This document shows, in pieces, positions 7,801 to 40,514 of a DNA stretch of 64,000 bases. The stretch covers positions 62,001 to 126,000 of the forward strand of contig NZ_CP075184.1 of assembly GCF_020510705.1 (NCBI RefSeq), in the 5' to 3' direction. Numbering within the stretch: the stretch's first letter is position 1; each line of letters opens with the position of its first letter. The DNA is from Acidovorax radicis. GTDB lineage: Bacteria; Pseudomonadota; Gammaproteobacteria; Burkholderiales; Burkholderiaceae_C. The notes below the pieces were generated by a model that worked only from the letters and a program-made list of their open reading frames with translations, did no database searches and was not told the DNA's origin. The translations under genes and the position numbers were made by a program.

Positions 7801-9762
7801 GATGAATATGCGCTCGAGAACACCCCCAGCCTGCAATTGCTGACCCACCGCCAGTACGTGGTGACCGAGAAGGTTCAGCAGCTGTACCCGCAGGCCCCCA
7901 TTCTTCGCTACGTGGGCGCCCAGGGTTACGCAGGCCAGCAGTTGTGCAATGCCGATGGCGAAGTGGTGGGCATCGTGTTCGTGCTGTTTCGACAGCCCAT
8001 TGCCGAGACCGATTTCATCACCTCGACGCTGCAGATTTTTGCCGCGCGCGCCTCGGCTGAGATCGACCGCCAGCTGGCGGACGCGCGCATTCGCCACCAG
8101 GCCTCGCTGCTGGACAAGGCACAGGACGCTATTTTGGTGCGCGACCTGGAGCACCACATCATTTTCTGGAACAAGAGTGCAGAGCGCCTGTATGGCTGGT
8201 CGCAGATGTTGGCCCTGGGCCAATCCATCGAAACCCTGCTCTACGATGACCCCACCCATTTCCGACACGCGACCCAGACAGTGCTAGAGCAAGGCGAGTG
8301 GACCGGCGAAATCGTGCAGCGCCACCGGGACGGCAGCGTCATTGAGGTGGAGGGCCGCTGGACACTGGTACGCGGTGACGACGGCCAGCCGCAATCGATC
8401 CTCGCCATCAACACCGACATCCGCCAGCGCAAGGCCAGCGAGCGTGAGATCCAGCGGCTGGCGTTCTACGACGCGCTCACCGGCCTGCCCAACCGCATGC
8501 TGCTCATGGACCGCATGGGCCAGGCGCTGGCCAACGCACAGCGCCGCCAGCAGGGCGGGGCGCTGCTGTTCATCGACCTGGACAACTTCAAGACCCTGAA
8601 CGACACGCTGGGCCATGACCAGGGCGACCTGCTGCTGCAACAGGTTGCGCAGCGCCTGAACACCTGCGTGCGCAGCGTGGACACCGTAGCCCGCCTGGGT
8701 GGCGACGAGTTTGTGGTGATGCTCGAAGAGCTGTCGGCAAAGCCCCATGAGCTGGCACTGCATGCGCGCGGCGTGGGTGAAAAAATCCTCACCATGCTGG
8801 CCGTTCCCTATGCGCTGGCCGGCTACCAATACCGCAGCACGCCAAGCATCGGCGTTGCACCGTTCACGGGCGAACAGACCAGCGTGGGCGAGTTGCTCAA
8901 GCAGGCTGACCTGGCCATGTACCAGGCCAAAACCGCAGGCCGCAACACGCTGCGATTTTTTGACCCCGACATGCAGGCCGTGGTCACGGCCCGGGCCGCG
9001 CTGGAGACCGACCTGCGCGCAGCACTCGCACAAGACGAATTTCTGCTGCACTTTCAGCCGCAAATGCACAACTCGGGCCGCTGCGTGGGGGTCGAGGCGC
9101 TGGTGCGCTGGGCCCACCCGCAGCGGGGCATGGTGTCACCCGCCCAGTTCATCCCGCTGGCCGAAGAAACCGGGCTCATCCTGCCGCTGGGCCGCTGGGT
9201 GCTGCACACCGCGTGCAAGCAGCTGGCCAGCTGGAAGGACGACCCCGCGCTGGCCCACCTGACCATGGCCGTCAACGTGAGTTCGCGCCAGTTTCTCCAT
9301 GCCAGTTTTGTGGACGACGTGGCCCGCGTGCTCGCCATCACCGGGGCACCTTCGGGCCAGCTCAAGCTGGAGCTGACCGAAAGCGTGCTGGTGGAAGACA
9401 TGGAAACCACCATCGCCACCATGGCGGCCCTGCGCTCCTATGGCGTGGGGTTTTCGCTGGACGACTTTGGCACGGGCTACTCATCGCTCAGCTACCTCAA
9501 GCGCATGCCGCTGGACCAGCTCAAGATCGACCAGAGTTTTGTGCGCGACCTGTTCACCGACCCCAACGATGCCGCCATTGTGGACACCATCATCGGCCTG
9601 TCGCGCAATCTGGGCCTGGAGGTGATCGCCGAAGGGGTGGAAACCCCCGAGCAACGCGCGCTGCTGGCCGAAGCGGGTTGCCAGCTCTACCAGGGTTACC
9701 TCTTCAGCCGCCCCCTGTCTGTGGACCTTCTGGAGGCCTTCCTGCGGCATCCCCCTGTTTAA
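4882..9762 (+). CDS. Multi-sensor GAF/PAS diguanylate cyclase-phosphodiesterase
   Basis: A 1626-residue cytoplasmic c-di-GMP enzyme with no membrane segments. From the N terminus I read GAF (about 20-175), two PAS (200-300, 325-435), GAF (450-600), PAS (610-730), two GAF (735-1070), PAS (1075-1190), GGDEF (1195-1360) and EAL (1375-1620). The cyclase motif GGDEF starts at residue 1273 and is intact. The phosphodiesterase motif EAL starts at Glu1405, and DDFGTGYSSLSYL is also present, so both activities are possible. The ligands of the eight sensory modules are unknown. The start at 4882 has a GGGGG site 4 bases upstream; longer readings begin with a low-complexity tail. A terminator follows. 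Confidence 0.93.
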   Translation: MSMPPAQATAEAARLQALQAYAILDTPAEESFDQLAQLAARICQCPMAVVNFVDNKRQWFKAAVGVPFRETDRAIAFCAHALSGSREPVVVPDATLHPTFADNPLVREAPHVRFYACVPLVTHDGFALGTLAVLDGVARAIQPEQIEGLQILARQAMAQLELRRQKQVLGHLAAERDRMHAELVAQSEALRVAGQIARIGGWIVTLPGMQLVWSPEIATTFGLTERAGTVEGILQLYTEPHRTTVRRAFDDCMRKGVAFDLEAEVVIPGNRCFWVRTAGEAVRDASGNIVRVQGAFQDISAQHQALEDRHISEERFHLVARATADAVWDWNLQTDAMWWNEGMQTLFGVSQAELPPDSTSWTLRLHPDDGDELLRSIEAAIAGTTNHWTAQYRFRRHDGSYAWVSDRGFLIRDPQGKAVRMVGGVTDISTQKLAEIDAQNDAQNHADLLQVQQRISSLEMPLPDVLQLVADTVLRQTNARGAVVELLQDGQLLAQAAAGDHVRPVGHLLPVDQSLLWSTLSEGRTIVCNDTEAQGWDMAHMPHRQGVRSVMAVPLRSGDVIVGALKVTSDKVNAFSQRDVAHLEILTESLGAMVQLRHVAGRLHASELQYRMLFDEHPHPMWVYDKESLRLLAVNRSMETHYGYTEAELLSMAMTDLWPEDRRASVKARISAISIDERKKPIISRHVKKDGSFTDMEITAGRISFNGRPARQVLAIDVTERLRTDAELARMGRAQRLLSACNETLVRATSETTLLQAICQIAVDIGGYRMGWVGFAQDDEQKSILPVAHAGYNPDYLENLALSWSADHVSGRGPAGMAVRTGQPVIVQDIRTEDNFSDWTEHMLNHGFHGVICLPLRDRDRTFGLLYLYAPDILQISAQEAALLQELSNDLAFGITSLRAQKAQQRLQASVLKVAAAVSASTGTEFFVQLVRNMADALGAQGGCVVRLLPAAGDRPPRVITLAAVLDGQMLPNDEYALENTPSLQLLTHRQYVVTEKVQQLYPQAPILRYVGAQGYAGQQLCNADGEVVGIVFVLFRQPIAETDFITSTLQIFAARASAEIDRQLADARIRHQASLLDKAQDAILVRDLEHHIIFWNKSAERLYGWSQMLALGQSIETLLYDDPTHFRHATQTVLEQGEWTGEIVQRHRDGSVIEVEGRWTLVRGDDGQPQSILAINTDIRQRKASEREIQRLAFYDALTGLPNRMLLMDRMGQALANAQRRQQGGALLFIDLDNFKTLNDTLGHDQGDLLLQQVAQRLNTCVRSVDTVARLGGDEFVVMLEELSAKPHELALHARGVGEKILTMLAVPYALAGYQYRSTPSIGVAPFTGEQTSVGELLKQADLAMYQAKTAGRNTLRFFDPDMQAVVTARAALETDLRAALAQDEFLLHFQPQMHNSGRCVGVEALVRWAHPQRGMVSPAQFIPLAEETGLILPLGRWVLHTACKQLASWKDDPALAHLTMAVNVSSRQFLHASFVDDVARVLAITGAPSGQLKLELTESVLVEDMETTIATMAALRSYGVGFSLDDFGTGYSSLSYLKRMPLDQLKIDQSFVRDLFTDPNDAAIVDTIIGLSRNLGLEVIAEGVETPEQRALLAEAGCQLYQGYLFSRPLSVDLLEAFLRHPPV

Positions 9763-9799
9763 AGGGCTGTGCGCTGGCATCTGCCGCACCCAAACCAGA

Positions 9800-9823
9800 C
9801 CGCCGCCTCCGGCGGTTTTTTTT
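9800..9823 (+). terminator. Intrinsic terminator after the GGDEF-EAL gene
   Basis: CCGCCG pairs with CGGCGG across a CCTC loop and is followed by eight T. It lies 38 bases after the stop codon. Confidence 0.85.
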
Positions 9824-9888
9824 CGCCTGCCGTATGGGTTTTCGCGTGGATATCCACCGATCCACCGCCATACACGCATGGCGGGCTC

Positions 9889-9906
9889 AGAACGTGTCCA
9901 CGTTCT
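9889..9906. repeat. Interspersed 20-bp palindrome, copy 2
   Basis: AGAACGTGTCCACGTTCT, 16 of 18 positions symmetric. It sits at the left border of the origin-like region. Confidence 0.55.
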
Positions 9907-9984
9907 TAACCATTCGAGCGAGCCGCCGTCCCCTCTACATCAGAGCCCCGCATCTGTTGCGGCGGTGGGCTGCGTGTCGATGTT

Positions 9985-10206
9985 GTCCTCTGTCTTCTTC
10001 TTATATCTTCTATTGATACATAGTCGTAGTAGTAGAGGGCTCCTTCTGGTGTGGACAACTGTGTTTTCCCCAGCCACGGCGCCCACTTGCGAACGTGGCA
10101 ACCCTGTGCACGAATCCCTGTTGCCGCTGTCGCCATAACGGGGACAAAAGGCGGCCTGGGCTCGTTGCTGTGGATAACCGGTCGGTTGTGCCAGATCTAT
10201 CCCCAG
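9985..10206 (+). other. Origin-like module A
   Basis: In order on this strand: an AT-rich, CTT/TAT tract (about 9990-10020), a TAG-triplet run GTAGTAGTAG (10026-10035), a short GC-rich segment, TGTGGACAA at 10050-10058, a perfect DnaA box TGTGGATAA at 10169-10177, GGTTGTGCCA at 10184-10193 and CTATCCCCA at 10198-10206. The DnaA box, GC cluster, TAG triplets and AT tract match the order described for the basal unwinding system of bacterial oriC (DnaA-trios). No protein-coding gene fits here. Confidence 0.65.
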
Positions 10207-10237
10207 TCTTACGCACCGGGCTGGGAATGGTTCCATT

Positions 10238-10290
10238 TTTGGGTCAAATGAGCCTCTAGTGCTTATCTAACAACCGCAAGCAGCTCCTCT
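10238..10290 (-). repeat. Dispersed palindromic repeat, degenerate copy 9
   Basis: Read on the minus strand it gives AGCTGCTTGCGG, then ATAAGCACTAGAGGCTCATT. This is a diverged member of the same repeat family, placed between the two origin-like modules. Confidence 0.5.
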
Positions 10291-10459
10291 ATTAATAGCA
10301 AAACAGTTGAAACAACGGATCCATACGGGCTGTAAGCGCGTAAAGGAGCACCTGTCCGCCGGCCCGCATTGGGAGCCTCCAACCGTTTTTTTGCGCGGAC
10401 TTGGCGCCTATTTTTTGAAATCCGCTGCCAGCGTCACCCCTGAACTGGCGCCCGGATGT

Positions 10460-10693
10460 TGGGGTTCAGGTTGTTCTTCTAAGTCTTTATATATAAATAG
10501 CAGTAGTAGTAGAGCAGGCCCCTTTCTGTGGACAAACCTCTTTTTCGTAATGCTGGCGCGGGTTTGTGTTGCTTCAAAGTCTGTGCGGCAGCGTGCACAA
10601 AACACGGGGCCCACACACAACAACTTCGGCACAGGGCATTTTTTTGTGGATAAGTGCCTGGTTGTGCCAAAACTATCCACAGGTTTGTCCACG
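10460..10693 (+). other. Origin-like module B
   Basis: The same order as module A: TATATATAAAT (about 10489-10499), TAG/CAG triplets (10498-10514), a GC-rich segment, TGTGGACAA at 10527-10535, a perfect DnaA box TGTGGATAA at 10645-10653, GGTTGTGCCA at 10660-10669, CTATCCACA at 10673-10681 and TTGTCCACG at 10685-10693. Matching elements of A and B are offset by 476-477 bases while the sequence between them has diverged. It is the better of the two modules as a DnaA-binding region. Assignment as the chromosomal origin is inferred. Confidence 0.7.
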
Positions 10694-10740
10694 CCATGCC
10701 TCCATTCGGCGCATCCCATGCCAGGGCGGCCCCGCAAAAC

Positions 10741-10772
10741 AAAAAACCCGGTGTCCATGGATGGACACCGGG
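10741..10772 (-). terminator. Intrinsic terminator for the LTXXQ gene
   Basis: CCCGGTGTCC pairs with GGACACCGGG across six bases, with a run of T following on the minus strand. It closes the right side of the gene-free origin-like region. Confidence 0.8.
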
Positions 10773-10867
10773 CTGCAGGCAAAACCGGGGGGGCGTTGCC
10801 CATTCCGCAGCCTTCAAGGCTGGGTCCGGGGTGGCGCTGACCTGGTTCTGGTGGGGCGTGGGCAGGC

Positions 10868-11509
10868 TTACTTGGAGGCCGGTGCTGGTGCTGGTGCCGG
10901 TGCAGGCATCATTTTTGCGGGGCCCATGCCGGGCTTGCCTTCACCTCCCCGGTGCATGTCGCCACGGTGGTCGTGTTGGCCGCGGCGGTGGCCTTCGGCG
11001 CCCTTCATGCCGTCCATGCCTTTCATACCGCCCATGCGCATGCCACGGTGGGCCTGGGCATCAAAGGTCTTTTGCTGCTCGGGTGTCAAAGTGGCATAAA
11101 AGGTTTTGGTGGCTTCGCCCCGGCGGTCGGCTTCGGCGGCGTGCTGGGCACGCAGCGCGCGCATGCGGTCAATGCGCTCAGGGGTGGTGAGCTTGTCCAT
11201 TTCCTTGCGGTCCAGTCGGTCCAGGCGGGCAGGGCGCTCGTCGGGCTGCATGGCCGTGGTGAAGCTGGTCCAGGCGGGTTCCTGGGCGGCGGTCAGCTTG
11301 AGCTGGGCCTTGAGGTCGGCCAGGTGCTTGGCGTGGTACTGGGCCATGTCGCCATGGTGGCGCTCATGGCGCTCGTGGCGGCCTTGGGGTGCCGTGGCCT
11401 TGGCCGATGCGGCGGGTGAGGCCACAGCGGGCTGTTGTGCCAGCACGGGCAACGAGAGGGCAGCCAGGATGGCCGTAGCGGCAAAGCGGCGTTGGAGAGT
11501 GGATGCCAT
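10868..11509 (-). CDS. Periplasmic Spy/CpxP-like LTXXQ protein
   Basis: A 213-residue secreted protein. A Sec signal peptide ends near VLAQQ. Two LTXXQ-type motifs, LTAAQ and LTPEQ, bracket a charged helical core as in the Spy/CpxP/RcnB group of periplasmic chaperone or metal-stress proteins. The C terminus is Met/His/Gly-rich and ends in a Pro-Ala repeat, suggesting metal contact. The start ATG at 11509 has AAAGGAC upstream and is followed at once by the signal peptide; longer readings add an unrelated tail. The copper genes lie 3 kb away, but co-regulation is not shown. Confidence 0.8.
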   Translation of the reverse strand: MASTLQRRFAATAILAALSLPVLAQQPAVASPAASAKATAPQGRHERHERHHGDMAQYHAKHLADLKAQLKLTAAQEPAWTSFTTAMQPDERPARLDRLDRKEMDKLTTPERIDRMRALRAQHAAEADRRGEATKTFYATLTPEQQKTFDAQAHRGMRMGGMKGMDGMKGAEGHRRGQHDHRGDMHRGGEGKPGMGPAKMMPAPAPAPAPASK

Positions 11510-11681: not shown

Positions 11682-12859
11682 GGAAGCTCTTCACGAATCG
11701 GTTCTGGCTGTGCCGTAGCGATGCCCGAACTAAGACAGCGCCCGCGTTGGGTCATTGGGTACTCCCGGCAGGCGCTGCGCGAGGGCCATTGCCCGGTTTC
11801 GCGGGGCATTAAGCCCCCTGCACGCGCACCTGCCCCATGCAGGCCAGCAACTTGTGCCTTGCCATCCACAGATTGCCCAGCGCAAACAGCGTGACGATCT
11901 GCGCCGTGTTCTTCATGAGCCCCCGGTAGCGCACCTTCACGTACCCGAACTGCTGCTTGAGCACCCGAAACGGGTGCTCCACCTTGGCCCGGATGCTGGC
12001 CTTGGTGCGTTCAAGTTGGTCGATCAGCGCATCCACAGGCTTGTTTTTGTCCAAAGCCCGGCGCAACCCCGGGCGCATGGCTACATGCCAGCGCACGTTC
12101 TTGTTGGCATCGGGCCGCTTGTCCACTCCTTGGTAGCCCGCATCGCCAAAGGCATCCGTTTCTTGCCCGTGCAGCAGGCTGTTGGCTTCTATCACGTCGT
12201 TCACATTGCCACTGGTGCCGCGCACGCTGTGCACCAGGCCTGAATCCGCATCCACGCCAATGTGAGCCTTCATGCCAAAGTACCACTCGTTGCCCTTCTT
12301 GCTTTGATGCATCTCGGGGTCTCGTGCCTTGCCTTCATTCTTGGTGGACGTCGGCGCCGCAATCAGCGTGGCATCCACCACCGTGCCTGCTTTGAGTTGC
12401 AGCCCTTTGGCTTGCAGCAGGGCATTGACCGTAGCGAGGATCTGATCGGCCAGTTTGTGGCGCTCCAGCAGATGCCGAAAACGCAGGATGCTCGATTCAC
12501 TGGGAATGTGTTCGTCCCAGTGAGACAGGCCGGCAAAGTCCCGAAAGGCTGGCACGTCGTGCAGTGCCTCTTCCATGGCTGGGTCGCTAAGCTTGAACCA
12601 CTGCTGCATGAAATGGATACGCAGCAGGGTCTGCACCGCAAAGGGCTGCTGGCCCCGGCGTCCGATCTCTGGGGCGTAGGGCTCAATGAGCGAGACCAAC
12701 TCGGCCCAGGGCACCACCAACTCCATCGCATCAAGGAACTCGCGCTTGCGTGTGCGCTTGGTGGTATTGCTCAGGCCCAGGCTGCTTTGCTTCATGGCCT
12801 TATTGTCTCGGCTTCAAGCCTTCGTAAGCACATTACGCAGGGATTTGTGCAGAGAATCC
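11682..12859. mobile_element. IS5-family insertion sequence, complete with ends
   Basis: A 1178-bp element. The left end GGAAGCTCTTCACGAATCG and the inverted right end GGATTCTCTGCACAAATCC match at 14 of 19 positions. It is flanked on both sides by CTAG (11678-11681 and 12860-12863), the 4-bp target duplication expected for the IS5 group. It contains one transposase gene on the minus strand. It interrupts a copy of the dispersed palindromic repeat. Confidence 0.85.
11809..12795 (-). CDS. IS5-family transposase
   Basis: A 328-residue DDE transposase. It has the N-terminal IS5 helix-turn-helix region (DUF772-like, residues about 45-120), then VVDATLIAAPTS with the first catalytic Asp, a DAGYQG segment with the second, and a C-terminal RAKVEHPFRVLKQQFGYVKVR block containing the catalytic Glu. 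The reading frame is uninterrupted, so the element may be active. Start ATG at 12795. It catalyses cut-and-paste movement of the element that carries it. Confidence 0.93.
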   Translation of the reverse strand: MKQSSLGLSNTTKRTRKREFLDAMELVVPWAELVSLIEPYAPEIGRRGQQPFAVQTLLRIHFMQQWFKLSDPAMEEALHDVPAFRDFAGLSHWDEHIPSESSILRFRHLLERHKLADQILATVNALLQAKGLQLKAGTVVDATLIAAPTSTKNEGKARDPEMHQSKKGNEWYFGMKAHIGVDADSGLVHSVRGTSGNVNDVIEANSLLHGQETDAFGDAGYQGVDKRPDANKNVRWHVAMRPGLRRALDKNKPVDALIDQLERTKASIRAKVEHPFRVLKQQFGYVKVRYRGLMKNTAQIVTLFALGNLWMARHKLLACMGQVRVQGA

Positions 12860-25263: not shown

Positions 25264-25279
25264 TGTTTCACGTGAAACA
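25264..25279. promoter_or_regulatory. parS site 1 (perfect)
   Basis: TGTTTCACGTGAAACA, identical to the bacterial parS consensus bound by ParB. It lies between the FMN reductase and mnmG genes. Confidence 0.93.
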
Positions 25280-25524
25280 CGCAGGCGCCACAGAGTGCAC
25301 TGAGGGCGGGTGTTCAGTGAAGCCCGCAGGGTCGCTGGCTGTGGAAACAGACACATTCCACACAAAGTGGGAAAATCGCGGGTTGCCCCGCCGGGGCTGG
25401 TCGCTGCGTGGCGACTGGTCTGGGTGGGGACGGTGTGCCGTCGCCCCGCTCTGTGAGTGGGCAGGGGCCGTGGGCGCACCGGACATTTTCACTATCGGGC
25501 CCGCCGGGCCCCGGAGCGCTCCCC

Positions 25525-27522
25525 ATGTTGTACCCCCAGGAATTTGATGTGATCGTTGTCGGCGGTGGCCATGCTGGCACCGAGGCCGCGTTGGCTGCCG
25601 CGCGCATGGGCAGCAAAACGCTGCTGCTGACCCACAACATCGAGACGCTGGGGCAGATGAGCTGCAACCCCAGCATTGGCGGCATCGGCAAGGGCCACTT
25701 GGTCAAAGAGGTGGACGCGCTGGGCGGTGCCATGGCGCTGGCCACCGACGAGGGTGGCATCCAGTTCCGCATTCTCAACAGCAGCAAGGGCCCTGCGGTG
25801 CGCGCCACGCGGGCCCAGGCCGACCGTATTCTGTACAAGGCCGCCATCCGCCGCATGCTGGAGAACCAGCCCAACCTGTGGCTGTTTCAGCAGGCGGTGG
25901 ACGATTTGATGGTCGAGGGCGACCGGGTGGTGGGCGCGGTGACGCAGGTGGGCATTCAGTTTCGCAGCCGCACCGTGGTGCTCACAGCCGGCACTTTTCT
26001 GGACGGCAAGATCCATGTGGGCCTGAACAACTACGCCGCTGGCCGCGCCGGAGACCCGCCTGCGGTGTCGCTGTCGGCACGCCTCAAAGAACTGAAGCTG
26101 CCCCAGGGCCGCCTGAAGACCGGCACGCCGCCGCGCCTGGATGGCCGCAGCATCGACTTCTCCAAATGCACCGAGCAGCCCGGCGACGGTATGCCGGGTG
26201 GGGTGAACGAGGGTACGGTGCCGGTGTTCAGCTTCATGGCACGTGCACACGGTGGGGCTGCCATGCACCCGCGCCAGATGCCCTGCTGGGTTACTCATAC
26301 CAACGAGCGCACGCACGAGATCATCCGCAGCGGCTTCGACCGCAGCCCCATGTTCACGGGCAAGATCGAGGGCGTGGGCCCGCGTTATTGCCCCAGCGTG
26401 GAAGACAAGATCAACCGCTTTGCCGACAAGGACAGCCACCAGATCTTTCTGGAGCCCGAAGGCCTGACCACGCATGAGTTCTACCCCAACGGCATCAGCA
26501 CCAGCCTGCCGTTCGACATCCAGTACGCGCTGGTGCGTAGCATGCCCGGGCTGGAGAACGCGCACATCCTGCGCCCCGGCTATGCCATCGAATACGACTA
26601 CTTCGACCCGCGCTCGCTCAAGAGTAGCTTTGAAACGCGGCAGATCCAGGGCTTGTTCTTTGCTGGGCAGATCAACGGCACCACGGGCTACGAAGAGGCG
26701 GCGGCCCAGGGCCTGTTCGCTGGTATCAATGCCGCGCTGCAATGCCGTGGTGAGGCAGCTTGGCTGCCCGGTCGCGACGAGGCCTACCTGGGGGTTCTGG
26801 TGGACGATCTGATCACCAAAGGCGTGACCGAGCCCTATCGCATGTTCACCAGCCGGGCCGAGTTCCGCCTGCAGCTGCGTGAGGACAATGCCGACATGCG
26901 GCTGACCGAAGCAGGGCGGGGCATGGGCCTGGTGGATGATGCGCGCTGGGATTCTTTTAGCCGCAAGCGCGACGCTGTTTCACGTGAAACAGAGCGCCTG
27001 AAGGCCACCTGGGTGAACCCGCGCAACCTGCCTGCGGCGGAGTCCGAGCGGGTGCTGGGTAAAAGCATCGATCACGAATACAACCTGTTCGAGCTGCTGC
27101 GGCGCCCGGATGTGAACTACGCCACCCTGATGTCGATGGATGGAGGCAAGTACGCATCCAACGATGTTTCACGTGAAACCCTGGGTGATCTGACGGAACC
27201 CGTGTTAGAGCAGGTAGAGATCGCTGCCAAATACGCAGGCTATATCGACCGCCAGAAGGGTGAGGTGGAGCGTGCGGCACATTTTGAGAAGCTGCGCCTG
27301 CCGCCTGATCTGGACTACATGCAGGTGACCGCCTTGAGCATCGAGGCGCGCCAGGTGCTCAGTCGCCACCGGCCGGAAACACTGGGCCATGCGTCGCGCA
27401 TCACAGGCATCACTCCGGCGTCGATTTCGCTCCTGATGGTGCATTTGAAGAAGGGTGGGTTCAAGGACTTGGCCGTGGCCCCGGCAACGCCCGCCAAGGC
27501 AGAAGGTGAAGTGGCGGCATGA
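25525..27522 (+). CDS. mnmG: tRNA uridine-5-carboxymethylaminomethyl modification enzyme MnmG
   Basis: A 665-residue FAD enzyme (GidA). With MnmE it modifies the wobble uridine of certain tRNAs. The dinucleotide motif [19 protein letters not shown] opens the protein; family blocks [43 protein letters not shown] and [16 protein letters not shown] follow; the C-terminal MnmE-binding helices are present. The start at 25525 fits the family N terminus MLYPQEFDV. Two parS sites lie inside the gene and translate as VSRET in both places. It is coupled to rsmG by an ATGA overlap. Confidence 0.97.
26976..26991. promoter_or_regulatory. parS site 2 (perfect, inside mnmG)
   Basis: TGTTTCACGTGAAACA within the mnmG coding sequence. 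Confidence 0.92.
27165..27180. promoter_or_regulatory. parS site 3 (one mismatch, inside mnmG)
   Basis: TGTTTCACGTGAAACC, one base from consensus, 189 bases after site 2. Confidence 0.85.
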
Positions 27523-28199
27523 CGATGGTGGTGAACAACAACGACAGCCTGCGCCGGCAACTGCAGGCCGGGGCGGATGTCTTGGCGTTGGACCTGAGCG
27601 ATGCCGAGATCACGCAGTTGATGGACTTCCTGGCCCTGCTGCAGAAATGGAACAAGGTCTACAACCTGACCGCTGTGCGTGACCCGCAGGAGATGATGAC
27701 GCACCACCTGCTCGACAGCCTGGCTGCCGTGGCACCGCTGCGCCGCCATGTCGCAACGTTGGTGGGGGAGGGCAAGAGTGTTGTACGCTTGCTCGACGTC
27801 GGCTCTGGCGGCGGTCTGCCCGGTGTGGTGTTTGCCATCTGCTGCCCGGGTGTGGACGTGAGCTGTGTGGATACGGTGGGCAAGAAGGCAGCCTTCATCC
27901 AACAGGCAGCGGTGGCGCTGAAGCTGCGCAACCTGCATGGTGTGCACGCACGGGTTGAGACGCTGACCACACCGTTCGACATCATCAGTTGCCGCGCGTT
28001 TGCCTCGCTGCCCGATTTTGTCACCTGGTCGCGCAGTGCGCTCGCCGCGCCACATGGTGTCTGGCTGGCCATGAAGGGCAAACACCCCGAGGACGAAATC
28101 GCGGCGCTGCCCGCCGATGTGGCGGTGTTTCACGTGGAACAGCTCACCGTGCCGGGCCTGGATGCGGAGCGCTGCATCATCTGGATGAAGCCCGCCTGA
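27519..28199 (+). CDS. rsmG: 16S rRNA (guanine527-N7)-methyltransferase
   Basis: A 226-residue SAM-dependent enzyme (GidB) that methylates G527 in the 530 loop of 16S rRNA. Motifs: [12 protein letters not shown], the SAM loop [14 protein letters not shown], and [13 protein letters not shown]. Its ATG overlaps the mnmG stop by four bases, indicating translational coupling. A near-consensus parS lies inside the gene at 28126. It has a longer N terminus than E. coli RsmG. Confidence 0.95.
28126..28141. promoter_or_regulatory. parS-like site 4 (one mismatch, inside rsmG)
   Basis: TGTTTCACGTGGAACA differs from the consensus at one base. Confidence 0.7.
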
Positions 28200-28317
28200 C
28201 CATCTTGGCCGCCGGGCGCTGACTTTTCAGCGGCCGGGGCAGGGTGGTCGCGTAAACTCGGCTCCTCACTTCGGGTGCATCCATTCTGTGCACCCATCCA
28301 GCACACCGGGAGAGATC

Positions 28318-28932
28318 ATGTTAGGCATCGCAGACTACGGCGCCTTTGTCGCCGCCATTGTGTTGTTCCTGCTCATTCCAGGCCCCGGCAATCTGGCGCT
28401 CATCACCTCCACCAGCAAGGGCGGCATTCGCGGCGGCATGGCGGCCACCATGGGCGTGATTGCGGGCGACCAGGTGCTGATGTGGGCGGCAGTGGCCGGT
28501 GTGGCTGCGTTGCTGGCCACCTACCCGACGGCCTTCCATTCGGTGCAGTGGCTGGGCGCGACCTACCTGGCCTGGCTGGGCTTCAAGATGCTCATCGCCA
28601 AGCCAGGGGCACAACCCATTCTCAACATCCAGCCGCGCCACTATTTCAAGCAGGCGGGGCTCATCACCTTGCTCAACCCCAAGGCCATCGTGTTTTACAT
28701 GGCTTTCTTCCCGCTGTTTGTGGACCCGGCGCGGCACCAGGGCATGCTGACCTTTGGTGTGATGGCAGCGACGGTGGCGGTGCTGACGTTTTTCTACGGC
28801 CTGACCGCCGTGCTGCTCACGCACCACCTGGCCGAGCGCATGCGCGCCAACCCGCGCATCGGCCGCGCGCTGGAGAAAGTGGCCGGCATCTTTCTGATCG
28901 GCTTTGGCATCAAGCTGGCCATTTCCAAATAA
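28318..28932 (+). CDS. LysE/RhtB-family amino-acid exporter
   Basis: A 204-residue inner-membrane protein with about six hydrophobic helices. The N-terminal LLIPGPGNLALITSTSKGGIRGG block and the later LITLLNPKAIVFYMAFFPLFVDP block are diagnostic of the LysE/RhtB translocator family, which exports amino acids or homoserine lactones. GGGAGAG precedes the ATG. It lies between rsmG and parA on the same strand; the substrate is unknown. Confidence 0.92.
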   Translation: MLGIADYGAFVAAIVLFLLIPGPGNLALITSTSKGGIRGGMAATMGVIAGDQVLMWAAVAGVAALLATYPTAFHSVQWLGATYLAWLGFKMLIAKPGAQPILNIQPRHYFKQAGLITLLNPKAIVFYMAFFPLFVDPARHQGMLTFGVMAATVAVLTFFYGLTAVLLTHHLAERMRANPRIGRALEKVAGIFLIGFGIKLAISK

Positions 28933-28968
28933 AACAACAACGACAACCACACGGACTGCACATTCCCC

Positions 28969-29781
28969 ATGGCCAAAATTTTCTGCGTTGCCAACCAAAA
29001 GGGTGGCGTCGGCAAGACGACCACCACCGTCAACCTCGCCGCCGGCCTGGCCAAGATCGGCCAGCGCGTGCTGATGGTGGACCTGGACCCGCAGGGCAAC
29101 GCCACCATGGGCTCGGGCGTGGACAAGCGCAGCCTTGACCTCACGGTGTACGACGTGCTGCTCGAATCCGCCTCGGTCAAAGAGGCGGCCGTGCTGTCGG
29201 ACAAATGTGGCTATTGGGTGCTGGGCGCCAACCGCGAACTGGCGGGCGCCGAGGTGGAACTGGTGGCATTGGAGCACCGCGAAAAACGCCTGAAGGCCGC
29301 GCTGGCCGAGGCCGATGGCGACTATGACTTTGTGCTCATCGACTGCCCGCCGTCTTTAAGCATGCTCACCCTCAACGGCCTGTGCAGCGCGCACGGCGTG
29401 ATCGTGCCCATGCAGTGCGAATACTTCGCGCTCGAAGGCCTGACCGACCTGGTCAACACCATCAAGCAGGTGCACGCCAACCTCAACGCCGACCTGCAGA
29501 TCATCGGCCTGCTGCGCGTGATGTTCGACCCGCGCATCACCCTGCAGCAACAGGTCAGCGACCAGCTCAAGGGCCACTTTGGCGAGAAGGTGTTCAACAG
29601 CGTGATCCCCCGCAACGTCCGCCTGGCCGAGGCGCCCAGCTACGGGCTGCCCGGTGTGGTGTTCGACCCGGCCGCCAAGGGCAGCCAGGCCTTTGTGGAG
29701 TTTGCGCAAGAAATGGTCGAGCGCGTGCAGAACATGCCTGCAGCGACAACTTCTATAGCCAAAACGGCACCTGACGCTTGA
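28969..29781 (+). CDS. parA: Chromosome partitioning ATPase ParA
   Basis: A 270-residue ParA/Soj. The deviant Walker A KGGVGKTT lies at residues 11-18, Walker A-prime at DLDPQGNAT, and the DNA-binding and ATPase blocks DCPPSLSMLTLNGL and MQCEYFALEGL follow. Together with ParB and the parS cluster upstream it moves the origin region before division. Oddity: the final residues of the protein (SIAKTAPDA) are encoded by the edge of a dispersed palindromic repeat that begins inside the gene. The family normally ends a little earlier. Confidence 0.95.
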   Translation: MAKIFCVANQKGGVGKTTTTVNLAAGLAKIGQRVLMVDLDPQGNATMGSGVDKRSLDLTVYDVLLESASVKEAAVLSDKCGYWVLGANRELAGAEVELVALEHREKRLKAALAEADGDYDFVLIDCPPSLSMLTLNGLCSAHGVIVPMQCEYFALEGLTDLVNTIKQVHANLNADLQIIGLLRVMFDPRITLQQQVSDQLKGHFGEKVFNSVIPRNVRLAEAPSYGLPGVVFDPAAKGSQAFVEFAQEMVERVQNMPAATTSIAKTAPDA

Positions 29782-38918: not shown

Positions 38919-40514
38919 TCAGCGGCGCTGTTCGGGCGCGGCGCAGATGCCGGGGGTTGCGCGCGGCGGCGCGGCACACACCATGCGCAGCCGGGCAGAG
39001 AACGCGCCCTTGCCGATGCCGGAGCTCGACGCCTCCAGCCAGGGCACCTGCTGGCGCACGCGCTCCAGCGCTGCGCGGGCTTCTGCCTCGCTGCCGCGTC
39101 CCTCCAGCTCGACCAGCTTGCCGTCATGCAGGGCCAGCCGCGTCAGCGTCACGTCGTTGCCCAGCACCGGGCGCAGTGCGTCTTCCACCTGCTGCGCGGT
39201 GTAGGCGCTGCCCGACGCTGGCAGACACACACTGCGGTCGCCCGGGGCCGCGCACAGAAAGTTGACGAGCACGCGGTAGGCCACCTGATCGGCCTCGCGC
39301 CGGACCCAGGCCACCTGCGGGTTGCGCACCTCGCCCGAGCGCTGCAGCGCCTGCACCCACTGGCGCACGGTCGCGTCATCGGGTGCGCGGCCTTCCAGCG
39401 CTGCGCCGTCCTTCCACAGGTCTATCTTGCCCAGGGTCACGCCGCTGGGCAGCAGCGGCTGCAGCACATCGCTGACCCGCCGGCGCGGTGAGACGGGCTC
39501 ACCGCTTGCAGCCTGCGCGCCAGGGGGCGGTGGAGAGCCCGGGTCGGGCGCTGGCAGCACCGGCCGGGGGCCCGCAAGGCCCATCACGTCTAGTTGCAGG
39601 GCGCGGGTTTCATCGCGCAGGGCGCTGATCAGGGGCATGGGGTTCACGCGGCCTGCAGGCACTTTCAGCGCGCTGACGGGGCCATCAATCCAGATCGGGT
39701 ACTCCAGTGCGATCTGGCCCGGCGCGCTGGCCGGCTGGTAGTAGCCTGCATCTGCATCTGCATCTGTGTCTGCGCCAATGCGAATGGAGAACCGTGCCCG
39801 GGTGGTAGTGGTTGACACGCGCGCGTGGCGCGCATCCATGTCGTGGAACAGCAGCGCTGTGCTGCTTTGCGCGCTGGCCAGTTGCAGCCACTGAACCTGG
39901 CCCGTGCCGCCCGCCACGACCGATGCGTTCGAGTGCACGCTCAGCAGGCCCAGGCGCACCCCATAGAACCACAGCTTCATGCCGTGGCTGGGGTTCAGAC
40001 TGATTCGCAACGCCGGCAGGTCCACCCGGTCGAACAGCACCTTCAGGTGGTCGCCGCGCAGCAGCAGTTCGTGGGCTGTGGCCAGCTGCAGCGTGAAGCA
40101 CACGGCAGCGTTGTCAGCGCCCGCGCGCGGGATGGTTGAAGCGCCTTGTGCAGCGCTGATCGTCACGTCGTACAGCCTGGGCCGGTTGCCGCCCTGGCGG
40201 TCCGCGCCGTAGGTGGTGTCGGCCACCTGGAACGTCCCCCGTCCAAGGAACAGCCGGTTCTCCGCACCCGACACCACGCGCACCGTGCAGTCGTTGGCGA
40301 TGATGTGCACATGCCGCAAGTTTCCAAGCCGACCCGTGCCCGGGTCCCAGGGACGCTCGCGGGCGTCGCGCAGCAGGTTGGCGCGCTCGATCAGCGTGTC
40401 GGGGGTTGCGTCCAGCGGCGCTGCGTGGGCCAGCGCGGTGGCTGCGCACGCCAACGCCGCCAGGAGCAGAGAACGAAGAGTGCGCGGAGTGCTTGGAGTA
40501 CGAAAGGGGGTCAT
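38919..40514 (-). CDS. Exported protein with duplicated C-terminal module, unknown function
   Basis: A 531-residue protein with a Sec signal (ALACAATALAHA). The central region is beta-rich with many short strands. The C-terminal 190 residues contain two related modules: SDVLQPLLPSGVTLGKIDLW with ALEGRAPDD, and EDALRPVLGNDVTLTRLALH with ELEGRGSEA; the second is a diverged repeat of the first, resembling BON or PilN-type modules. A (TGCATC)n microsatellite encodes an Asp-Ala run near residue 250. I do not recognise the family. Start ATG at 40514 is chosen because a signal peptide follows. Confidence 0.65.
   Translation of the reverse strand: MTPFRTPSTPRTLRSLLLAALACAATALAHAAPLDATPDTLIERANLLRDARERPWDPGTGRLGNLRHVHIIANDCTVRVVSGAENRLFLGRGTFQVADTTYGADRQGGNRPRLYDVTISAAQGASTIPRAGADNAAVCFTLQLATAHELLLRGDHLKVLFDRVDLPALRISLNPSHGMKLWFYGVRLGLLSVHSNASVVAGGTGQVQWLQLASAQSSTALLFHDMDARHARVSTTTTRARFSIRIGADTDADADAGYYQPASAPGQIALEYPIWIDGPVSALKVPAGRVNPMPLISALRDETRALQLDVMGLAGPRPVLPAPDPGSPPPPGAQAASGEPVSPRRRVSDVLQPLLPSGVTLGKIDLWKDGAALEGRAPDDATVRQWVQALQRSGEVRNPQVAWVRREADQVAYRVLVNFLCAAPGDRSVCLPASGSAYTAQQVEDALRPVLGNDVTLTRLALHDGKLVELEGRGSEAEARAALERVRQQVPWLEASSSGIGKGAFSARLRMVCAAPPRATPGICAAPEQRR

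Follow-up and report, generated by a model that had tools for sequence, protein, structure and literature searches.

A gene-free stretch of the Acidovorax chromosome is almost certainly its replication origin (oriC), and we consider it likely that this origin lies about 71 kb from dnaA and is built of two tandem, complete unwinding modules, with the upstream one (M1) as the probable main start and the other (M2) downstream of it. The chromosome is a single, complete contig of 4,995,154 bp (4.995 Mb; completeness 100), and the window, that is, the whole 64-kb stretch analysed here, comprises its bases 62001-126000. The modules lie in a gap flanked by two convergent genes, one for a 1669-aa GAF/PAS/GGDEF/EAL protein and the other for an LTXXQ protein (Table 1).

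Table 1. Features of the origin region and its surroundings, in window positions (a dot marks features with no strand assigned)
Feature	Position	Strand	Basis or remark
Gene-free origin region	9763..10867	.	1105-bp (1.1-kb) gap between 3' ends of two convergent genes
Terminator-like hairpin, 3' of left flanking gene	9797..9818	+	hairpin search
AT tract of M1	9987..10036	.	second least stable 50-bp window of the 64 kb
Module 1 (M1), upstream	9989..10219	+	profile match, 1.3e-42
DnaA-trio-like repeats of M1, TAG-TCG-TAG-TAG-TAG	10021..10035	+	sequence inspection
Trio-proximal DnaA box of M1, TGTGGACAA	10050..10058	+	14-bp spacer from trios
Distal DnaA box of M1, TGTGGATAA	10169..10177	+	119 bp from proximal box
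Conserved tail of M1, GGTTGTGCCA...TATCCCCA	10184..10205	+	GGTTGTGCCA 10184-10193, TATCCCCA 10198-10205
AT tract of M2	10464..10513	.	least stable 50-bp window of the 64 kb
Module 2 (M2), downstream	10467..10693	+	profile match, 3.8e-42
DnaA-trio repeats of M2, TAG-CAG-TAG-TAG-TAG	10498..10512	+	sequence inspection
Trio-proximal DnaA box of M2, TGTGGACAA	10527..10535	+	14-bp spacer from trios
Distal DnaA box of M2, TGTGGATAA	10645..10653	+	118 bp from proximal box
Conserved tail of M2, GGTTGTGCCA...TATCCACA	10660..10681	+	GGTTGTGCCA 10660-10669, TATCCACA 10674-10681
Inverted DnaA-like box of M2, TTGTCCACG	10685..10693	-	overlaps 12-nt perfect inverted repeat
Terminator-like hairpin, 3' of right flanking gene	10745..10774	-	hairpin search
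Four parS-like sites, 0-1 mismatch	25264, 26976, 27165, 28126 (span 25264..28141)	.	motif search

Position and architecture of the origin

The sequence-only reading of the window had proposed an origin at this site, away from dnaA, and the GC skew of the chromosome, which was sampled in 44 stretches (40 plus the window cut in four), bears this out. Between 78 kb and 2.7 Mb, 21 of 25 stretches have positive skew; on the arc that runs from 2.85 Mb across the contig ends to 60 kb, 15 of 18 have negative skew, and one further stretch straddles the site. The cumulative minimum, computed between 4.975 Mb and 126 kb, a region covered almost without gaps, falls at genome position 72749 (window 10749), 56 bp past M2. 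A two-level fit places the change point at genome position 72801, and its approximate 95% set spans 71001-75801. In the sampled genome the minimum is thus found at the modules and not at dnaA, whose start codon opens the contig 71 kb away; adjacency to dnaA is a usual trait of oriC, not a required one, and is lacking here, as had been noted from the letters. An origin beside dnaA was considered and rejected: the upstream region holds two DnaA boxes only, both within 100 bp of the gene, TAGTAG is absent from the 8 kb upstream, and the module profile (see below) gives no match at dnaA, so that neither pattern nor profile finds an intact oriC there. A CTACTA 6-mer occurs 2 kb downstream of dnaA. 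With oriC in this downstream position, transcription of dnaA runs in the direction of the origin and meets the leftward fork head-on.

Terminator-like hairpins follow both gene ends, and the modules do lie between two such sites, as first read; taken alone this is weak evidence, as four such sites were found against 2.1 ± 1.4 in shuffles. The four parS-like sites that had been noticed at a distance from the modules are also present, and together with mnmG, rsmG and a ParA-type ATPase gene they lie ~15-19 kb away, within or next to mnmG and rsmG; a LysE-type transporter gene stands between rsmG and the parA-type gene (window 25408-29781). A DDE transposase gene (DUF772/DDE_Tnp_1; window 11809-12795, minus strand) is found 1.1 kb from the origin. 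Searches of the 64-kb window for Rfam families and for tRNAs gave no matches, a search of 9600-11000 for promoter-like sites found none, and between the modules no open reading frame passed the coding filter, the mechanical ones that occur there giving no convincing gene.

Both modules share one order of elements, namely AT tract, TAG trios, 14-bp spacer, TGTGGACAA, 118-119 bp, TGTGGATAA, GGTTGTGCC and TATCCNCA, and corresponding elements are offset by 476-477 bp, all where the sequence-only reading had placed them. The site combines a cluster of DnaA boxes, an AT-rich element of low stability and, in the sampled genome, the GC-skew minimum. In M2 a perfect 12-nt inverted repeat (10528-10539 / 10681-10692) joins the first and last DnaA boxes; the repeat listing contains no 12-nt perfect inverted repeat of this type for M1. 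The orientation of the box relative to the trios is, we believe, the same as in Bacillus subtilis. The DnaA-box/DnaA-trio unwinding design suggested earlier agrees with the published sequence criteria of basal unwinding system (BUS) origins (PMC8287927): TTGTCCACA, the reverse complement of TGTGGACAA, has one mismatch to TTATCCACA in both modules (at most two are allowed), the 14 bp between box and trios in M1 and M2 fall in the range of 0-16 bp, and the required run of at least three NAN trios is represented by three in M1, where the fourth is TCG, and by five in M2.

In the 5-Mb genome the strict pattern TAGTAG-(8-30)-TGTGGAYAA occurs only within M1 and M2 (four overlapping matches; none in the reversed control), hence the modules are not a product of chance. 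A profile built from sequence alone, using 49 modules, matches M1 at 1.3e-42 and M2 at 3.8e-42, E-values that err on the favourable side, as both sequences are part of the profile itself, and its next match in this genome is a 45-bp fragment with an E-value of 0.03. Among 184 distinct modules from the loci examined, 24 are without one strict box, and in 156 of the 160 that have both the proximal and distal boxes are 118 or 119 bp apart. The distance between modules is free, ranging from 465 to 1003 bp where the strict pattern matches twice, as it does in 35 Acidovorax genomes, and reaching kilobases elsewhere. Such rigidity inside the modules, combined with freedom between them, is the pattern expected of autonomous units.

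Conservation and copy number

The DnaA boxes and TAG triplets singled out in the sequence-only reading are kept in relatives. Within the genus, 46 of 47 genomes contain the strict pattern (reversed control 4/47): 35 have two modules on one strand at the distances given above, 11 have one and one has none, and genomes G160 and G191 show an additional stray strict match elsewhere. Separate M1 and M2 profiles, trained on many of the loci that they classify, recognise both modules at 30 of 31 genus loci, including five with one strict match, the second module in one-match genomes being confirmed for those among the examined loci; at the single exception (L076) the contig stops 652 bp before its M2. 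Over 30 loci each, mean pairwise identity reaches 0.707 for M1 and 0.719 for M2, against 0.227 for the spacer, and amounts to 0.277 (29 loci) and 0.288 (30 loci) for the flanks. In the genus consensus of M2 the AT tract and trios are no less strictly retained than the boxes, and there is an extra canonical inverted box, TTATCCACA, which is absent from M1. By their profile scores, upstream copies are assigned to M1 and downstream copies to M2 at 57 of 57 loci each, a result that is partly circular, since most of the 30 genus loci served to train the profiles and the other 27, which are named Acidovorax, may repeat the same species. Two modules are present in 27 of the 32 loci with an Acidovorax title. 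The match lies within 0.5 kb of the locus end in L147, L151 and L161, and in two loci named Acidovorax, L129 (MR-S7) and L176, a second copy was absent within about 2-4 kb; MR-S7 is classed here as another genus, and its second copy is 3.9 kb away.

Across the GTDB family the strict pattern was found in 61 of 150 genomes (reversed control 17/150) and the profile in 141 of 150, the window's own included. Two or three profile matches occur in 44 of the 150 (neighbouring copies seen only among the matches listed, and matches on different contigs in G039, G013 and G144). A search across the order found matches in 20 of 100 genomes, three of them in the window's family and 17 of 97, mostly weak, outside it. 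In another family of the order, G248 carries three weaker tandem modules 0.6-0.8 kb apart (C1:1853644-1855256), and G200, of the same family as G248, has two modules 389 bp apart. Inverted pairs of origin modules are seen in G132 (L235-L238) and G044, 24 kb and 4 kb apart, respectively, and G004 (L184-L188) has three same-strand modules over 29 kb, at 40049, 49249 and 69317.

We located dnaA in 48 of the 61 pattern-positive genomes. Fourteen with dnaA on another contig were left out, as were G121, which wraps round its contig, and G013, where the module lies 58 kb from dnaA on one contig; the set compared, with module and dnaA on one contig, comprises 33 genomes, namely 32 relatives and the window's own. 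In six of the 33 the module is situated 535-584 bp past the dnaA domain match, always on the opposite strand, while in 27 it is 8-259 kb from dnaA, in 24 of these 27 on the downstream side of the gene; leaving aside the window's own genome, the displacement holds for 26 of 32.

The upstream M1 and downstream M2 identities also appear in groups on which the profiles were not trained (two Paracidovorax, Simplicispira, Giesbergeria, G138 and G003), and outside the Acidovorax-like group, in Hydrogenophaga, Aquabacterium, G004, G147 and G007, the labels fail. On a tree of 61 modules the upstream and downstream labels need 6 changes, compared with 20.3 in shuffles. A single supported group (95/87) unites the downstream copies from Acidovorax, P. 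valerianellae and G138, the upstream copies are not grouped, and the tree does not recover the deep order of M1 and M2. In the Hydrogenophaga and G007 pairs each copy is nearest to its own partner, which points to separate duplications; the module has probably been duplicated several times, judging from this tree.

Roles of the two modules

In each module DnaA would attach to the trio-proximal box TGTGGACAA with support from DnaA at the distal box, 118-119 bp off, possibly by looping of the DNA in between; it would then extend along the TAG trios and open the AT tract, the place of helicase loading. From their sequences both modules are probably able to melt, and M2 may be a second melting site or a DnaA-recruiting helper that is kept by selection.

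Skew is a record of past replication, and in the window's own genome the fit does not separate M1 from M2, so any ranking of the two rests on relatives. Change points were fitted, on skew uncorrected for gene direction, in 19 relatives with at least two same-strand modules (G132, with an inverted pair, and G149, with one module, were excluded). The change point falls within 10 kb of a module in 15 of them; the upstream module is the closest in 13 of those and in 14 of the full set of 19. Exceptions are G004 and G075, where the change point is nearer a downstream module, and in G003, G034, G127 and G116 the closest module to it is 11-35 kb off. The approximate 95% set contains the upstream module and omits the farthest downstream one in G147, G120, G072, G010 and G136; in G116 it contains the downstream module and omits the upstream, and in the remaining relatives it contains both or neither. 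The sharpest cases are G136 (change point 84201, module 84066-84297) and G010 (change point 278401, module 277654-277888). In G003 (L199-L203) three modules stand at 3267-3272 kb and the change point at 3307 kb, 35 kb off, perhaps reflecting a recent origin move or a rearrangement. The skew between the modules resembles that of one flank in seven of 12 same-strand genomes (G147, G003, G120, G072, G034, G136 and G142), with large errors on these short intervals, and is near zero or intermediate in the other five (G004, G018, G007, G010 and G020), being zero within error between the first two modules of G004. We lean modestly towards M1 as the main start on this pattern of skew.

If M1 alone were the origin, M2 would be a DnaA-titration or recruitment site of the kind represented by datA and incA/B, regulating timing and never melting. 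The nearness of the skew switch to the upstream module in 14 of 19 relatives with separated modules would fit such a division, as would the extra inverted box TTATCCACA in the consensus M2. A titration site needs neither AT tract nor trios, however, and in M2 these are conserved across the genus as strictly as the boxes, its AT tract being the least stable site of the window; we therefore find this explanation rather doubtful, and a titrating site alone, which had been offered at the outset, fails to explain the retention of both AT tracts and trios. A somewhat better chance, still a tentative one, is given to both modules firing as separate origins, in which case the chromosome would have two natural origins close together (three in certain relatives), their use varying with the cell or the conditions. 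The full architecture of both modules, the spacing that is fixed inside and free between them, the 29-kb spread of the modules in G004, the first two of which have zero skew between them, and the near-zero or intermediate skew in five of 12 genomes speak for it. Against it stand the seven genomes in which the between-module skew is like one flank, subject to the large errors on short intervals, and the lack of an obvious gain from a close pair of origins.

A relic duplication with one module decaying, an idea also raised by the sequence-only reading, is strongly disfavoured: some copies may be recent or transient, given that duplication was probably repeated (the Hydrogenophaga and G007 pairs), but the Acidovorax modules are equally conserved, at about 71% identity versus 23% in the spacer, and the M1 and M2 identities recur in Paracidovorax, Simplicispira and Giesbergeria, which makes decay highly improbable. 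Nearly as improbable is a DnaA-regulated or unrelated element that happens to sit at a skew switch. The change point is more than 10 kb from any module in four of 19 relatives, yet the modules lie on the switch in the window and within 10 kb of it in 15 of the 19, the module is present in 141 of 150 family genomes, and in six of 33 it is adjacent to dnaA. The best-supported option is the two-part origin that had been suggested initially, since throughout the genus each copy has been retained as a whole unit.

Known origins and biological meaning

One origin per bacterial chromosome is treated as the rule, and origins are normally thought to carry one unwinding unit; in bipartite origins the box clusters are separated by dnaA or another gene, and in those of B. 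subtilis and Helicobacter pylori the parts flank dnaA. Only one part of these two origins is reported to be needed for unwinding in vitro, and the distal box of B. subtilis acts at a distance with helical phasing (PMC6669920). The Acidovorax locus resembles these bipartite origins in having two DnaA-box regions, both presumably useful, but differs in that an unwinding module with conserved AT tract and trios is found in both parts and not in one only, the modules are without a convincing gene between them, and dnaA is 71 kb away. The BUS origins (B. subtilis incC, H. pylori; PMC8287927, PMC6669920) have the same DnaA box, spacer, run of at least three NAN trios (TAG here), AT tract and second box further off, whereas the present locus has two complete tandem copies and a distal box at a strict 118-119 bp. 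The BUS survey narrows its candidates to one per origin for nearly every genome (PMC8287927); tandem units probably would therefore have gone unreported. We recognised no published description of tandem complete unwinding modules or of an Acidovorax origin in the literature searched, an entry in DoriC or in the supplement of that survey being possible. The exact origins in the family are poorly known.

We take Ralstonia pickettii to belong to the same family as the window's organism. It is one of the four single genomes for which Gao (2015) described putative double origins, at loci next to dnaA, hemE or parB (PMC4403523); more than one origin-like locus per chromosome is common to those cases and ours, which differs from them in being a tandem pair conserved across the genus and in relatives (PMC4403523). 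On chromosome 1 of Cupriavidus metallidurans CH34, DnaA boxes mark the GC-skew switch, which is some 90 kb distant from dnaA (PMC2864759); this parallels the dnaA-distant switch seen here, by description only, and the description consulted mentions no unwinding module. For chromosome 1 of Burkholderia cenocepacia the authors left the exact origin location uncertain (PMC4948915).

The profile, which matches 141 of 150 family genomes, could pin down the origin core in this family, and it shows that core to be often away from dnaA (27 of 33 genomes) and often multiple (44 of 150). Speculatively, Acidovorax and many of its relatives may possess natural multi-origin chromosomes, with two or three separately meltable DnaA origins of which the upstream one, in the trio-to-box direction, would fire first and the others would serve as backup or conditional origins. 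The duplicated modules, set at unequal distances, offer a clean system in which to learn whether two neighbouring origins can serve one chromosome, and they also suit a module-by-module testing of the unwinding model.
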